From the IMG/VR virus record IMGVR_UViG_3300046011_001033, positions 1 to 26,443 of that record: a stretch of 26,443 nucleotides of DNA. One strand, given 5' to 3'. Both the position numbers and the translations under genes were made by a program. The notes beneath the pieces were generated by a model. That model was not told the DNA's origin and ran no database searches. It saw only the letters and a program-made list of their open reading frames with translations. This DNA is from a virus. Position 1 is the stretch's first letter. Every line of letters starts with the position of its first letter. Positions 1 through 21,313 of the stretch are shown here, one piece after another.

Positions 1-185
1 TCACAGATTGCCCGTAATACTTCACGCCATGGGGTTGGTTCTAAATTGATGTCCGTTTTGGGTTGGACAATTTCACGCTTCAACGCACGGACCAAATTAT
101 CATAGTCCGATTTCTGTTCAATCATCTGCAACCGCATCCGCCTGATTTCTTGTTTCAGGTTGTGAACTTCTTGGTAATGGCTCAT
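1..185 (-). CDS. Unknown protein, 3' end cut by the window edge
   Basis: An open frame of 61 codons starts at ATG 185 and runs off the left edge. The ATG overlaps the stop of the preceding gene as ATGA, which suggests translational coupling and supports the start. The visible part is charged and probably helical or coiled coil (MSHYQEVHNLKQEIRRM at the N-terminus), followed by a segment containing TPWREVLRAIC. I do not recognise the family. It is the last visible gene of the operon that begins with the Mom-like protein. Confidence 0.7.
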   Translation of the reverse strand, partial: MSHYQEVHNLKQEIRRMRLQMIEQKSDYDNLVRALKREIVQPKTDINLEPTPWREVLRAIC

Positions 186-397
186 TTGTCACCCCCTTCG
201 GTTAGTTTGATGAATCCCGTGTTTTGGTTTGCCCCAGTGATACGGATAAAATCCACTTCAATCTTTGCTGAATTGATAATTACTTGGCTTACATCTGCCA
301 TTGTTTTTGCCGTTTCGATGTCGATGTCACCATCCTTTAATCGTTCCAACACTTCAAATAGGTGGTCACGCACATCGTTAATCTTGTTTCTTGCCAT
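182..397 (-). CDS. Small conserved phage protein of unknown function
   Basis: This 71-residue protein has a helical first half (INDVRDHLFEVLERLKDGD) followed by a segment containing TAKTMADVSQVIINSAKIEVDF. That pattern is familiar from short phage proteins annotated only as hypothetical. It has no enzymatic motif, signal peptide or membrane segment. Its ATG lies inside the 3' end of the HNH gene (20-nt overlap) and its TGA overlaps the next start as ATGA, so it sits within a translationally coupled operon. The function is unknown. Confidence 0.75.
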   Translation of the reverse strand: MARNKINDVRDHLFEVLERLKDGDIDIETAKTMADVSQVIINSAKIEVDFIRITGANQNTGFIKLTEGGDK

Positions 398-977
398 GTT
401 TTTTTATGTATTTTGTTATTTCTCGTTTGATATTGATTGCATCTTTGATTTCCTTCGGGTACTTCATTGGGTGGTGTTCCTTCATGAAGTGCATTTTGTC
501 CACCATTTCCAAGTTGCTTATGTCGCAATTGTTTTTGTTGCCATCCTTAAACACAATGTATTTGAATGGTGGGATTTTGCCGTTGTGTTGTTCCCAAGTT
601 AATCGGTGAAGGGGTTTGTACCCTTGCTCGGTTTTAATCGTTATAAAGTCCCTATAACTGCTTAAATGCCCTATCGGATGGTAATTGTGTGGGCGTTGCC
701 CTTTGACAAATCGTGTTTCAGCACCATTCAGCATTACACCCTTTGTTCCTTTGCACCAACTTGTGCATCCTTTTTTGAATTTAGGCAAATGCTTGTGTGC
801 GGTGTTTTTCAAATAACCCTGCCAAAAATCCTTATCCTTTCTTAACTTGTTTTTGTATGCAATGTTTTTGATGACATTCGGTGTGCAATTAAACTTCACC
901 GCCAAGTCCTTGTTGTGGGTTACGGGGAACAACAAGCGAAATTCATCCATTTCGGATTCCGTCCATATTTTCATCAA
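378..977 (-). CDS. HNH endonuclease (HNH_3 type) with N-terminal DNA-binding segment
   Basis: The protein has 199 residues. The C-terminal half carries an HNH_3-like core: PLHRLTWEQHNGKIP (residues 122-136, His124 and His131), then FKDGNKNNCDISNLEM (143-158, with Asp145, Asn147, Asn150 and Asn155). The N-terminus (WTESEMDEF then LAVKFNCTPNVIKNIAYK) looks like the helix-turn-helix found in front of many phage HNH nucleases. The usual HH pair is FK here, which I recall in other phage members. The ATG at 977 overlaps the upstream gene by 35 nt; a later Met would delete the conserved WTESE segment. It is probably a free-standing, homing-type nuclease. Confidence 0.88.
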   Translation of the reverse strand: MMKIWTESEMDEFRLLFPVTHNKDLAVKFNCTPNVIKNIAYKNKLRKDKDFWQGYLKNTAHKHLPKFKKGCTSWCKGTKGVMLNGAETRFVKGQRPHNYHPIGHLSSYRDFITIKTEQGYKPLHRLTWEQHNGKIPPFKYIVFKDGNKNNCDISNLEMVDKMHFMKEHHPMKYPKEIKDAINIKREITKYIKKHGKKQD

Positions 978-1209
978 TCATTTCTATTAATTCATCGTGA
1001 TTCATTTGGTCCATGTAGATTGGCGTATTATCTCCAATCCATGTATTCCATGTATTGTATTCCAAGTATTCAATGGCATCAATTTCTTCCATTTCATCCT
1101 GGACCAATATGTCAATCATTTTTTGTTTGCAGTAAATGATGCGTTCTTGCACCATGTCAATACCAATGATGGCTTCATCAAAGCCATCCGCCTTTATGTA
1201 ATTTGCCAT
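943..1209 (-). CDS. Acidic conserved phage protein of unknown function
   Basis: This is an 88-residue, strongly acidic protein. The pattern DGFDEAIIGID, then IIYCKQKMIDILV, EAIEYLEYN-like text and GDNTPIYMD recurs in many unrelated phages in proteins annotated as hypothetical. No catalytic motif or membrane segment is evident. It starts 1 nt after the acetyltransferase stop and its 3' end overlaps the HNH gene by 35 nt, so it belongs to the Mom-like operon. A role in modification or counter-defence can only be guessed from position. Confidence 0.8.
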   Translation of the reverse strand: MANYIKADGFDEAIIGIDMVQERIIYCKQKMIDILVQDEMEEIDAIEYLEYNTWNTWIGDNTPIYMDQMNHDELIEMIDENMDGIRNG

Positions 1210-1210
1210 G

Positions 1211-1771
1211 TCAAAATAATTGTAGTATGTTGTTGTTCAATTCTATTTTCCATAAATTAATGTCGTTGGATGCTTTGAATCCAACATGGTTTATTTTACC
1301 CTTTATCCATGTGTCGTAATGGGTAAATCCAAGTGACCTCCAAAAGTTGTTTGAATCCAAATCAACACGGCACCGCAAAGTGAAACCAATCCGATGAAAC
1401 TTGATGCAAAATTGTTTGCATACATCAAGCAATGCAGTACCATAGTGCAACCGCCTTGCATCGTTCCTAACACAGATTTGTTGAATCTTGGCGTATCTGT
1501 ATGCCGTCATCCCTGGGGTGATTAATACATAACCAACCGCATCATTGTTTGCTTCGCAAATCAGTACCACAAAGTTCCGTTCACCGCCAAACACATATTT
1601 ATCCCAAATTGATTTTTGAATAAACCCAACGGCGTTTGAATTCTCCTTTTGAAGTTTGTCAATCAATGCCATGTCCTTAATGGTTGATGTGCGGACCGAA
1701 ATGTCCTTTATTTTGTCGTGATACAAAACATTTATGAATCCCGTTGAGCAATCAAATTCGCCTAAATTCAT
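1211..1771 (-). CDS. GNAT-family N-acetyltransferase
   Basis: This 186-residue protein has a GNAT fold signature. The central strand and acetyl-CoA loop read AKIQQICVRNDARRLHYGTALL (roughly residues 94-115; the RRLHYGTAL loop corresponds to the Q/R-x-x-G-x-G/A site). A downstream RCRVDLDSNNFWRSLGF segment matches motif B. The substrate is unknown. It begins just after the Mom-like gene, with the leader GACAAATA-ACAA-ATG overlapping that gene's stop, so both are probably on one transcript. Mom itself is GNAT-related, so the pair may act in one pathway (inference). Confidence 0.85.
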   Translation of the reverse strand: MNLGEFDCSTGFINVLYHDKIKDISVRTSTIKDMALIDKLQKENSNAVGFIQKSIWDKYVFGGERNFVVLICEANNDAVGYVLITPGMTAYRYAKIQQICVRNDARRLHYGTALLDVCKQFCIKFHRIGFTLRCRVDLDSNNFWRSLGFTHYDTWIKGKINHVGFKASNDINLWKIELNNNILQLF

Positions 1772-1781
1772 TTGTTATTTG

Positions 1782-2453
1782 TCAAAATAATTTTGTTTGT
1801 GTTGTTGGTTGATAACTTGCATCATATCTTATGTTGTCACCCTTTGGGTATTCCATTGGTTCAATTCTCAATTCCTTCTTGAAATGTTTAATCTGTGTTT
1901 TGCTTCCAATAAAATACACATACCTATTCTTTGGTGGTCTTTGTACCTGGTACATTCGATCACCATACTTTTCTTTGAGTTTTTCAATTCTATTGGATTC
2001 AAATGCAAATTCATCCATCAGTGTTCGTGAATGTAAGTGTTCCAATCCCTTTACTTTCCAATCAAGTTGTGTGTGGCTTTCGCCAAGGTATAAAAAGTTC
2101 GTTGCCTGATAAATGTATCCAGTATGCCCAAATGATTTATCCGCATAAGACACAACAATCATTGGTTTGGGCAACTGCTTCAAACATTGTCCAACAAAGA
2201 ACGATGCTGAATTCTTCTTGGCTGATTCGTCAATACACAATCGATTCAATTCGTAAACCAAATGTTCAAAGGATTCCCCGCAAATACTTCTTTTCATTGT
2301 CAATGGGATTGCATTGCCAAATGTGCAAACACCAATTATCAATCCGTGGTCAAACAAACCAAACGCATACGAAATGGATGTCATGCGTTTTAGGTAATGT
2401 TTTTTTAACAACCATTCCTTGCAGTCGTGATTTTCAATTGGCCGAACTTCCAT
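1782..2453 (-). CDS. mom-like: Mom-like DNA adenine modification protein
   Basis: The protein has 223 residues. It resembles the phage Mu Mom family, GNAT-related enzymes that convert adenine to N6-carbamoylmethyladenine and protect phage DNA from restriction. Visible family features are VRPIENHDCKEW (residues 3-14), KKHYLKR (17-23), YAFGLFDHGLIIGVCTFGN (29-47), ELNRLCIDES (68-77), SYAD (102-105) and HTGYIYQATNFLYLGE (110-125). A basic C-terminal region with YPKGDNIRYDASY ends in QTKLF. I chose ATG 2453 because the longer frame needs a TTG start inside the promoter. GACAAATA lies 2 nt before the ATG. I infer an anti-restriction role. Confidence 0.88.
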   Translation of the reverse strand: MEVRPIENHDCKEWLLKKHYLKRMTSISYAFGLFDHGLIIGVCTFGNAIPLTMKRSICGESFEHLVYELNRLCIDESAKKNSASFFVGQCLKQLPKPMIVVSYADKSFGHTGYIYQATNFLYLGESHTQLDWKVKGLEHLHSRTLMDEFAFESNRIEKLKEKYGDRMYQVQRPPKNRYVYFIGSKTQIKHFKKELRIEPMEYPKGDNIRYDASYQPTTQTKLF

Positions 2454-2467
2454 GCTATTTGTCAATG

Positions 2468-2498
2468 CGAATATAGTTAATCCACACGGAATAAACAA
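2468..2498 (-). promoter_or_regulatory. Housekeeping-type promoter of the Mom-like operon
   Basis: On the minus strand TTG (2498-2496), 20 nt and TATATTCG (2475-2468) approximate the Bacteroidota pattern, with one deviation in the second box (TTCG for TTTG). It lies directly after a terminator hairpin and ends about 15 nt before the ATG at 2453. The transcript would therefore be almost leaderless. Confidence 0.5.
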
Positions 2499-2520
2499 TG
2501 GGGGCGTTATGCCCCCATTT
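2498..2520 (-). terminator. Hairpin terminator between the winged-helix gene and the Mom-like operon
   Basis: A perfect 6-bp GC stem (GGGGGC / GCCCCC) encloses a 5-nt loop and is flanked by A/T pairs. It is followed by T-rich sequence on both strands (ATTGTTTATT on minus, ATTTTGTTTG on plus), so it may work in both directions. It lies 7 nt past the stop of the upstream gene and immediately before the next promoter. Confidence 0.75.
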
Positions 2521-2526
2521 TGTTTG

Positions 2527-2784
2527 TTAAAATTCGTACTCAGTTAAAAAATCAACAAATTGACCTGGGCAAATTTGGCAGAACTTATCATCGCTTACAC
2601 ACACATAATTTTTTTGTGTCAATTGAGACAAATATCCCTTTACTTGCTTTTCGGTGAAATCGGTTACAAATTCCATAACTTCTTTGAAATATGTAAAGTC
2701 ACCACCAGTATATCGGTCAGATGCTTTTACAATTGATTGCAAAACTGAGATTTCGTTGTCGTTTAGATTTGTGTAGTTTTTCAT
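2527..2784 (-). CDS. Small winged-helix-like protein, possible regulator
   Basis: From ATG 2784 this gene gives 85 residues. The text LNDNEISVLQSIVKASDR, then FTEKQVKGYLSQLTQKNYVCVSDD looks like a small winged helix: helices, a recognition-like helix and a two-stranded wing. It could bind DNA, but no target is known. I chose ATG 2784 because GACAAATA sits exactly 2 nt upstream, as in two other genes; ATG 2796 is also possible, while the longer TTG frame overlaps the promoter. It is a single-gene unit between its own promoter and the 2498-2520 hairpin. Confidence 0.72.
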   Translation of the reverse strand: MKNYTNLNDNEISVLQSIVKASDRYTGGDFTYFKEVMEFVTDFTEKQVKGYLSQLTQKNYVCVSDDKFCQICPGQFVDFLTEYEF

Positions 2785-2805
2785 AGTATTTGTCATATTG
2801 TTCAA

Positions 2806-2863: not shown

Positions 2864-4021
2864 TTATCGGATGTCGTATTGGCCGTATGACGATTTGATT
2901 CCAAGTGCCATCATCTCGAAGTACCTCCAACTGTCAATTCCGTGATCCGTTCCCGTTGGTGTATTCATTGTACGCCCTTGGGCATCGGTATCCCAACAAT
3001 AGTTGCGCAGTTCTTTAATTAGGTTTGTGGAAGTGGATGTAACCAAATACGATTGGCTTTGCATGATTTGGATTCCGTAGTTGATTGAATCCTTTCCCTT
3101 GGTCACTCCCTTAATTCTTATCCCGTATCTCCGTATTTCATCAATTGACTTTGGTTCTGCGCTATCCGCATATACTGGCACAAAGTTGGGCAATGCCTTT
3201 GCAATATCCGAATTAAGCATCCCCGTGCGATATGCGACCTCATCAACGATTCGTTGGCCATTGTACTCATATACGGCCACTATTGCCGTAGGGTCGTTTG
3301 TATAACCGAAATCGACACCGCAACCAAGCAACCTTGCATCCTCGGGAATCTTGTCAATAGTTTGCCAATTGCTGAATATAACCCCTTGTAGGTTTCCAAT
3401 CTCACCAAGCCCATATACTTTCCACCAATTACGCCAATAGTTGCTTGTTTCAGCCCTATCCCGTGCCTTTTCAATTTCTGCCACGATGGATTTATCCAAC
3501 GCTTCGTTGTCCTTGTATGTTAGTACAATCATTTCCGCATCAGGGTCGCCCACCAATTCGCTATCCACCCAAAACTCCGCCACTGGGTTGTAATCCAAAT
3601 AAATGAATTTACGGGTACGGATTGCCATTTGGTAGTACGATTCCCAATCTATGTTGTTGCACTCGTTTACGAATAAAACATCACGCCTTGCACCCCTCAA
3701 CTTTTGTGGTTGATCCGCCGAAAAGAATTCAATGTATGAATCATTTGAGAATGTGTAGGTGAGTGAAGATTTGTTCCACTTGTTTGGGTCATACATTCCC
3801 ACCATGTCCATGATTTTTAGAAAGTCACGGATTGCACCCCTCCGCAAATGCGGGATGGTTTCGGACACCACACTAATTTCACACTTTGGGTTTTGCACCG
3901 CGTATGTGATAAGCATGGGAATAATACTGAATGTTTTGCTCGAACTTGTTCCACCGCGCACGATTCTAACCCGCTTTCGCAGTTGTGAAATCTTTGTTTG
4001 GGCGGTGGTTCTTTGAAGCAT
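2864..4021 (-). CDS. terL: Terminase large subunit
   Basis: This 385-residue protein is the ATP-driven packaging motor and DNA-cutting nuclease. The ATPase part shows a Walker A-like loop RGGTSSSKT (residues 22-30), the RGAIRDFL region and a Walker B FVNEC (117-121), with Glu120 the likely catalytic residue. The C-terminal RNase H-like nuclease shows GCGVDFGYTNDPTAIVAV, YADSAEPKSIDEIRR and DHGIDSWRYF, which carry the acidic metal-binding residues. The length is typical for compact phage terminases. Its ATG overlaps the stop of the small subunit candidate by 1 nt (TAATG). It lies far from the portal gene in this window. Confidence 0.95.
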   Translation of the reverse strand: MLQRTTAQTKISQLRKRVRIVRGGTSSSKTFSIIPMLITYAVQNPKCEISVVSETIPHLRRGAIRDFLKIMDMVGMYDPNKWNKSSLTYTFSNDSYIEFFSADQPQKLRGARRDVLFVNECNNIDWESYYQMAIRTRKFIYLDYNPVAEFWVDSELVGDPDAEMIVLTYKDNEALDKSIVAEIEKARDRAETSNYWRNWWKVYGLGEIGNLQGVIFSNWQTIDKIPEDARLLGCGVDFGYTNDPTAIVAVYEYNGQRIVDEVAYRTGMLNSDIAKALPNFVPVYADSAEPKSIDEIRRYGIRIKGVTKGKDSINYGIQIMQSQSYLVTSTSTNLIKELRNYCWDTDAQGRTMNTPTGTDHGIDSWRYFEMMALGIKSSYGQYDIR

Positions 4022-5470: not shown

Positions 5471-5852
5471 ACACTTGGGTCAATTCATTTATCATGGTTT
5501 GCCATGCCTTTGGGTTGCAAGTACACGGCTTGTAAATTCTTTTGCTTTGGAATATCCTTGACCACATTTCCGCAATCTTGGTTGCTTCCGTTGGGCTTAA
5601 TGTTGTGGAGTTGATGGATTTGAAGTGTGTCCACCAATCGTATTCGCCTTCGGTCATGCACAATGGTTTGCGGTTTGGGAATATCTTGTTCAATTTGTGT
5701 TTACGGGCATCGCAGCCGCAATCCTCTCCAGCTACAAACTTGGTCAAAAATTCAATCCCCGTGGCTTTCGTTACCTTCTGTATCGTATCCCCCAGTCCGA
5801 TGGATGGTCGTGATTCGGTAAACTGTTTCCGTGTGTCTTTTTTCTTCTGCAT
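5445..5852 (-). CDS. Cys-containing conserved phage protein of unknown function
   Basis: This 135-residue protein has GLGDTIQKVTKATGIEFLTKFVAGEDCGCDARKHKLNKIFP in two adjoining parts (about residues 19-59), followed by KPLCMTEGEYDWW and a CTCNP motif. The pattern is familiar from Bacteroidota phage proteins called hypothetical. The cysteines (GEDCGCD, PLC, CTC) could bind zinc. The start at 5852 lies 101 nt inside the sigma factor gene; no later Met would keep the conserved GLGDTIQK region, so the long overlap seems genuine. Confidence 0.75.
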   Translation of the reverse strand: MQKKKDTRKQFTESRPSIGLGDTIQKVTKATGIEFLTKFVAGEDCGCDARKHKLNKIFPNRKPLCMTEGEYDWWTHFKSINSTTLSPTEATKIAEMWSRIFQSKRIYKPCTCNPKAWQTMINELTQVYETYKVQE

Positions 5853-6360
5853 ATATCTTGTATTTGTTTTGTGTCCTTTGTTTGATAAATTGTTTGGCGT
5901 TCTTGATGGAGTTAAACACCGAATGTGTTGGAATACCCGTGCGTTTTTCTATCTCTCTCATGCTATGACCATACACAAAATGGAGTTCCAATAACATTTG
6001 GTCATAGTCACGCAGTTCATCAATTGCGTTCTTTACCTCACCCATCAAATCAGAATGTGCCATTTCAGCCATTTCGGGGCTTTCTACGGGAACAAAATGG
6101 TCTTGGTGTGGTATTGTGTTCTTTTGGCTTCGTTTGATGTCCATAAACGCATTGTGAAGCATTTTGAAAAGATAAATGGTGTTGATTGTTCCGTGGTGGT
6201 TTGTTAGCCGTGTAAAATTTCCTTCCGCCAGTTGTATTTCTGCCAACTTCAAATACATTGATTGTACCATGTCGTCCGATTCGTCACCCGTCGCCCCAAG
6301 GTATTTGGCAATCTTCAACCATTCGTTGTGCCGTTTCGCTATGGCTTCAAGTGTTACCAA
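5752..6360 (-). CDS. ECF-like RNA polymerase sigma factor
   Basis: The 202-residue protein has the two-domain layout of extracytoplasmic-function sigma factors. Sigma region 2 covers about residues 10-78, with DESDDMVQSMYLKL (26-39) and LFKMLHNAFMDIKR (64-77). Sigma region 4 covers about 113-160, with LRDYDQMLLELHFVYGHS and the helix-turn-helix MREIEKRTGIPTHSVFNSIK. It would redirect host RNA polymerase to phage promoters. The best start is TTG 6360, because the next Met (residue 31) lies inside region 2. The tail after residue 165 overlaps the next gene. I propose it recognises the late motifs near 15.7, 20.6, 22.9 and 23.9 kb. Confidence 0.85.
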   Translation of the reverse strand: MVTLEAIAKRHNEWLKIAKYLGATGDESDDMVQSMYLKLAEIQLAEGNFTRLTNHHGTINTIYLFKMLHNAFMDIKRSQKNTIPHQDHFVPVESPEMAEMAHSDLMGEVKNAIDELRDYDQMLLELHFVYGHSMREIEKRTGIPTHSVFNSIKNAKQFIKQRTQNKYKIYAEEKRHTETVYRITTIHRTGGYDTEGNESHGD

Positions 6361-12526: not shown

Positions 12527-12558
12527 CAAAAATAGGTTAAAGTATTTGCAATTCCAAA
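12527..12558 (-). promoter_or_regulatory. Housekeeping-type promoter of the 12512-10509 operon
   Basis: TTTG (12558-12555), 20 nt and TATTTTTG (12534-12527) match the Bacteroidota consensus. Only about 15 nt separate it from the ATG at 12512, and GACAAATAAC fills most of this. Confidence 0.68.
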
Positions 12559-12723
12559 TTAAATGCGTTTTAATATAAAATCAAACGCTTCGTGTAAAGT
12601 GACTGTGCGGTAAATTTCCGCCATGCGAAAGGCGTGTTCGTATGTTGGTGCATACCATGTTTTGGTGTACAATTCCTTTCCGCTTTCTGTGCGATAAACA
12701 CATTCGTAAATGTTAAGTGTCAT
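12559..12723 (-). CDS. Small early protein of unknown function
   Basis: From ATG 12723 this gives 54 residues starting MTLNIYECVYRTESG and containing KTWYAPTYEHAFRMAEIYR. The ATGs at 12729 and 12744 are alternatives; the last lies inside the promoter, so it is unlikely. The compact alpha-beta layout has no recognised family. It is the first gene after the lysis terminator, and its transcript would have almost no leader. Confidence 0.62.
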   Translation of the reverse strand: MTLNIYECVYRTESGKELYTKTWYAPTYEHAFRMAEIYRTVTLHEAFDFILKRI

Positions 12724-12733
12724 GTTCATGATG

Positions 12734-12764
12734 CAAATATACATTTGGTATTTGAAATTCCAAA
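12734..12764 (-). promoter_or_regulatory. Housekeeping-type promoter starting the early region
   Basis: TTTG (12764-12761), exactly 19 nt and TATATTTG (12741-12734) are a full match to the Bacteroidota consensus. It lies just past the amidase terminator, so it marks the switch from late to early genes. Confidence 0.8.
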
Positions 12765-12773
12765 CATATACAC

Positions 12774-21238: not shown

Positions 21239-21258
21239 ATTTTTCTATTTTGTTGGTT

Positions 21259-21290
21259 AAAAAAAAGGGGCGGGTGTTTACGCCCACCCC
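21259..21290 (-). terminator. Strong terminator after the major capsid gene
   Basis: On the minus strand GGGGTGGGCG, loop TAAA and CACCCGCCCC form a 10-bp stem with one wobble and one mismatch, followed by eight T (21266-21259). It starts 23 nt after the capsid stop. It is the strongest terminator in the window and probably sets capsid mRNA levels. Confidence 0.9.
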
Positions 21291-21313
21291 GTGTTTATAT
21301 TGTTCCTATATTA

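Follow-up and report, generated by a model that had tools for sequence, protein, structure and literature searches.

A Mom-family gene very probably lodged in an exchange slot behind a phage terminase gene

Introduction

When a gene for a DNA-modifying enzyme directly follows a GC-rich hairpin and a promoter, do these two elements serve that gene, or do they belong to the site in which it lies? The question is raised by a virus contig of 26,443 bases (the window, by which the whole stretch of DNA analysed is meant), in which all main genes are on the minus strand and the span 1211-2520 contains two genes, Mom and an ordinary GNAT acetyltransferase. In the direction of transcription, the order is the gene for the terminase large subunit (terL), a 67-nt gap that contains an element named P2, the small gene p89, the hairpin, a promoter named P1, Mom, the GNAT gene, p88, an HNH endonuclease gene, p71, and p147. 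From Mom on, neighbouring genes are at most 10 nt apart or overlap.

The terL gene (2864..4021, −; Terminase_3, E=3e-13) is the left border of a variable segment, to which belong the small accessory gene p88 (943..1209, −; phrog_13182, E=1e-17), whose presence varies among relatives, the HNH endonuclease gene (378..977, −; PF13392, E=1e-12), which in some relatives comes directly after terL and P1, and p71 (182..397, −), a small gene that travels together with the HNH gene. The right border is the core gene p147 (3..185, −), which resembles the C-terminal part of DnaA and of which only the N-terminal part is present, as it is cut by the contig end; its full-length counterpart in the relative L112 matches Bac_DnaA_C with E=2e-14, and it lies downstream in almost all relatives that extend that far. 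By terminase, the nearest named relatives are phages of Flavobacterium psychrophilum (52%), and because of this relationship the host is probably a member of the Bacteroidetes. In the one F. psychrophilum phage examined, the genes behind terL are annotated as hypothetical, and the slot described below could not be traced there.

The Mom protein

The gene at 1782..2453 (−) codes, from its ATG, for 223 residues that match the Mom profile PF25680 over positions 3-202 of 202 with E=1.8e-41 and 142.5 bits (cutoff 27.1), and phrog_1384 with E=3e-53. The only solved Mom structure, PDB 8bv8, is matched by sequence at E=1e-10 and is also the best PDB match of the AlphaFold2 model (pLDDT 87; Foldseek E=8e-11, TM 0.69), with other GNATs ranking after it at E=5e-5 or worse. 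That entry, which contains the Mom of phage Mu, is titled "Mom inactive mutant S124A". Mu S124, in the 241-residue Mup55 numbering, aligns with S84 of the window protein. Among 43 homologues, this serine shows no variation, and the same is true of H19, Y20, R71, N81, and Y115; D105 is conserved in at least 90% of them. By sequence and by model, the gene is a genuine new member of the Mom family PF25680, as the original prediction had supposed when it called the gene Mom-like. The same prediction had named the catalytic residues as the place where it could be refuted; with S84 conserved and the fold matching 8bv8, it was not.

The enzyme probably modifies the phage DNA against restriction, and by analogy its product would be adenine carbamoylmethylation. 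Another explanation is an enzyme of GNAT fold whose activity has shifted from DNA modification to the acetylation of a protein, a small molecule, or tRNA. Mom does lie within the GNAT superfamily, the model also matches ordinary acetyltransferases, and a GNAT gene directly follows. However, Mu Mom is the best match in both fold and sequence, well ahead of the other GNATs, the equivalent of S124 and the other motifs are invariant, and DNA methyltransferases take the slot of Mom in relatives, so that such a change of activity appears very unlikely.

Models of defence systems recognised none of Mom, GNAT, and p89. In bacterial genomes, Mom was found at 10 scattered MAG or genome loci, with no clear host. 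Of the nearest Mom homologues from outside this group of phages, only L001 has the neighbourhood in common, and in the others Mom is embedded elsewhere.

The promoter behind terL

P1 (2468..2498, −; TTGTTTATTCCGTGTGGATTAAC-TATATTCG) is a putative promoter of the Bacteroidetes sigma-A type, with a predicted start at about 2463 and a 10-nt leader. It reads TTG-N20-TATATTCG, compared with the consensus TTTG/TANNTTTG of the primary sigma factor of Bacteroidetes (PMC6847099), whose -7 box has also been given elsewhere (PMC9723704). A single match to TANNTTTG proves nothing, since the window does not contain the bare motif more often than shuffled sequences do (28 occurrences, 32 expected). A scan for E. 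coli-type promoters misses P1 and finds 7 sites where 14.9 are expected, which is uninformative for the host group.

The comparison with related phages is more telling. The relatives are the 80 closest viral contigs by terminase (93-100% identical; deeper branches are unsampled), 78 of which are readable past terL; P1 follows terL in 76 of these 78, in 34 distinct versions and regardless of the next gene, a count that overstates independence, as the relatives are metagenomic fragments and not independent lineages. The spacer of P1 measures 19 or 20 in every case, and the promoter lies 0-7 nt past the terL stop codon or behind one inserted small gene. Each locus has a single copy on the coding strand, with 0.15 occurrences expected per 26-kb strand. 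One relative (L087), which has no modification gene and no recognisable P1, is labelled as P1 by default in the segment table. P1 is accepted as real because of its conservation in the 76 relatives, the lone match in the window being weak. As it also stands before methyltransferase, GNAT, HNH, or core genes, it is, as far as sequence comparison can tell, part of the site and of the downstream operon and not of Mom. It is predicted to be active as a promoter, and with one mismatch to the consensus in its -7 box (TATATTCG), the copy in the window could be a weak one.

The hairpin and the P2 unit

The hairpin at 2497..2519 (−), AATGGGGGC-ATAAC-GCCCCCATT followed by the T-rich TTGTTTATT, stands alone in the window as a perfect stem of eight or more pairs with six or more G-C pairs among them, and shuffles lead to an expectation of 0.1 such stems per window. 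Directly upstream lies p89 (2527..2796, −), which has a slight winged-helix similarity and gives weak matches only (DnaD_N, E=0.015; MotA-like phrog_1345, E=0.012); in relatives, its position is filled by unrelated small genes. Ahead of p89 stands P2 (2821..2840, −; TATATTTGGAATTACAAATA), a palindromic element resembling a promoter or operator, of which the window contains three copies when up to three mismatches are allowed, with none expected, and which is conserved behind terL in those relatives that bear the insert.

The 61 distinct loci fall into 23 in which an additional small gene, in most cases with P2 ahead of it, separates terL from P1, and 38 in which this gene is lacking. A hairpin of the GGGG(G)C...(G)CCCC type just before P1 is found at 17 of the 23 loci with the insert vs none of the 38 without it (Fisher p=2e-10, uncorrected for shared ancestry and hence overstating independence). 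P2 element, small gene, and hairpin thus occur together in 17 of the 23 inserts, and the block is missing from the 38 other loci; as read from the sequences, the P2 unit is a mini-gene that can move and that carries a promoter and a terminator of its own. The hairpin, which tracks the P2 insert across loci and coincides with Mom at only 3 of its 17 loci (L083, L084, L105), is not Mom's; it is the probable transcription terminator of this small-gene unit, an optional insertion that separates terL from P1.

According to the original prediction, the hairpin insulates Mom from the upstream genes and a private promoter expresses it on its own schedule, the modification being toxic or needed late. 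The order of hairpin, promoter, and Mom in the window, common to L083, L084, and L105, is what such a device would look like, and both elements are indeed found directly upstream of Mom, the hairpin as the strongest stem of the window and P1 as a feature conserved in 76 relatives. Yet the other 14 of the 17 hairpin loci lack Mom, in L144 and L156 Mom follows terL and P1 directly and a hairpin is missing, and among 66 distinct regions upstream of Mom such a hairpin appears only in the window's own phage, most of the regions also lacking a box similar to -7. P1, for its part, would drive any gene that comes next and continue into the tail genes. A timing device specific to Mom is consequently most improbable: the assignment of the hairpin to Mom gives way to its association with the P2 insert, and that of the promoter to its place ahead of whichever gene follows.

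Palindromes of the P2 kind are also present elsewhere in the window. Three near-identical copies (TATNTTTGGAATTNCAAATA), with none expected, lie at 2821-2840, 12543-12562, and 12749-12768 (−) and adjoin small genes, one of which, p61b (12744-12559), is homologous to a small gene in the P2 unit behind the terminase gene of L155. A second strong hairpin resembling a terminator, GGGGTGGGCG...CACCCGCCCC followed by T8, is located at 21239-21313 (−) after the probable capsid gene.

Gene content between terL and p147

The segment is complete from terL to p147 in 69 relatives, which show 28 gene orders. Exactly one modification gene is present in 30 of them, always as the first gene after P1, and none has two; the remaining 39 hold no recognised modification gene, so that the slot is not reserved for modification. 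In 10 segments there is no insert, and P1 runs straight into the core gene. The modification genes with Pfam or PHROG support are C5, N4/N6, and phrog_757 methyltransferases and Mom, and the other first genes behind P1 are GNAT, a fusion of an ABC-ATPase and a GNAT domain, HNH genes, and the core gene.

Mom itself occurs in the slot in three divergent types. The terminase of L084 is 99% identical to that of the window and its Mom only 54%, and the corresponding values for L105 are 96% and 53%; because divergent alleles adjoin near-identical terminases, Mom must be regarded as exchanged. Taken together, the comparisons make it very probable that the Mom gene occupies an exchange slot between terL and p147, in which P1 is resident and the hairpin belongs to the P2 unit. 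A slot with a resident promoter that alternates Mom with methyltransferases is a new form of accessory-gene hotspot; a literature search found no description of a slot in which Mom and methyltransferases are swapped.

Two further features of the relatives deserve mention. The ABC-type ATPase-GNAT fusion (phrog_11143, of unknown function) lies in the slot behind P1 at L099:3166-4314 and also in L107, L108, and L121, and may represent a new enzyme of modification or of counter-defence. In L123, L128, L135, and L158, weak Mom-like matches (23-34%) are located upstream of terL, at a distance of 1.1-1.9 kb and close to a ParB-like gene, where there may be a second variable site.

The neighbouring GNAT gene

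The GNAT gene (1211..1771, −) starts 10 nt after the Mom stop codon and codes for a protein of 186 residues and unknown function (PF00583, E=1e-9), whose model (pLDDT 87) has an ordinary fold with NatE, RimI, and SpeG as the nearest structures. In named phages, no match was found at E 1e-5. It could be that Mom and its neighbour form a two-enzyme system in which the GNAT supplies or finishes the base modification: the 10-nt spacing recurs in L105 with a different Mom allele, and Mom adjoins this GNAT in L207 and L233-L237 as well. Against this, the GNAT stands alone behind P1 in L085, L088, L093, L158, and L162, copies 67-100% identical to it occur in 79 viral contigs of which most have no adjoining Mom or methyltransferase, and most Mom loci have no GNAT. 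A two-enzyme system is therefore unlikely; judged by these sequences, a partnership of the two proteins is possible and not indicated.

Proposed working of the slot

In relatives, the run of genes that starts at P1 includes p147 and four more genes and reaches an open frame of at least 877 codons, with no gap above 31 nt; the end of this frame is homologous to the right-hand edge of the window, and the tape-measure gene follows. To the genes that separate p147 from the tape-measure gene, a function is ascribed by position. A search for a terminator separating Mom from the genes behind it found none in the window, nor in the downstream stretches of L095, L110, L118, L154, and L114; in L098 and L162, a further insert with a terminator comes after p147. 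The separate timing of Mom that had been proposed does not agree with this continuity, as P1 runs on without a terminator into structural (tail) genes.

Under the favoured reading, that of an exchange slot with a resident promoter, the host-type P1 at or just after the terL stop would make any gene placed behind it the head of an operon that extends into the tail genes. Since P1 and the tail module are linked by genes with hardly a gap, the slot gene would probably be made together with this module, just before packaging. Mom would then modify the replicated DNA before or during packaging, which would shield this DNA against restriction once it enters the next host. Most likely, the slot would serve the phage for altering its DNA modification and hence its restriction resistance. 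Termination at the hairpin, late co-expression with the tail genes, and protection from restriction are all deduced from sequence. A protein at window 5752-6360 (−) resembles sigma factors and Q-like antiterminators (phrog_1740, E=4e-5; phrog_79, E=5e-5) and is a candidate regulator of late promoters.

Relation to known systems

The window Mom resembles that of phage Mu (PF25680; PDB 8bv8) in family, fold, essential serine, and surrounding motifs, and differs from it in being about 27% identical and having a shorter N-terminus. The setting is also different, as the window gene lies behind terL under a host-type promoter, whereas the com-mom operon of Mu is at the genome end under the activator C. 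A com-like gene overlapping the start of mom is absent, p89 lying 73 nt upstream and not being Com-like, and there are no GATC (Dam) sites in the 73-nt spacer upstream of the window Mom. Mom-like genes of Listeria A511-like, Staphylococcus Twort-like, Proteus, and further phages (phrog_1384; 266 phage records) are homologous and 36-42% identical. For the window Mom, the comparison defines in addition where the gene is inserted, which promoter precedes it, and by which genes it is replaced.

As with morons and accessory-gene hotspots, genes come and go between otherwise near-identical genomes. The P2 unit with p89 is similar to a classical moron, having its own promoter and terminator and being present or absent as a block. 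Mom, in contrast, brings neither and uses the resident P1 to join the downstream operon. The orphan DNA methyltransferases of phages (C5, N4/N6, phrog_757) share the slot and the promoter with Mom and perform methyl transfer in place of the Mom modification. The slot may be seen as a natural experiment, in which near-identical phages carry different DNA-modifying enzymes behind the same promoter, and it would allow a direct comparison of how useful each chemistry is against restriction by the host. The replacement of Mom by methyltransferases supports a DNA-modification role for Mom outside Mu, and the comparison corrects the tempting view of the hairpin and promoter as a timing device specific to Mom.

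Tandem Mom genes

Outside the window, Mom genes also occur in tandem, with three in L002 (4290-6504) and two each in L055 (2161-3734), L056 (4248-5821), L057, L063, L068, and L069. In these seven loci, the first copy (4290-5222 in L002, 4248-5174 in L056) has an in-frame insert of about 90-115 residues near Mom residue 145, which shares a motif with the N4/N6 methyltransferase in the slot of L141 (E about 1e-4) and whose annotated phage matches are DNA methyltransferases. At 12 of the 80 Mom loci (L001-L080), there are two or more Mom-like genes, in many cases strongly divergent, which suggests several modification specificities per phage. Because of the swapping of Mom with methyltransferases, the tandem genes, and the methyltransferase-like insert, it is conceivable, and held here only tentatively, that the Mom family diversifies its targets as restriction-modification methyltransferases do, the insert-bearing copies being sequence-specific Mom enzymes with a borrowed target-recognition domain.
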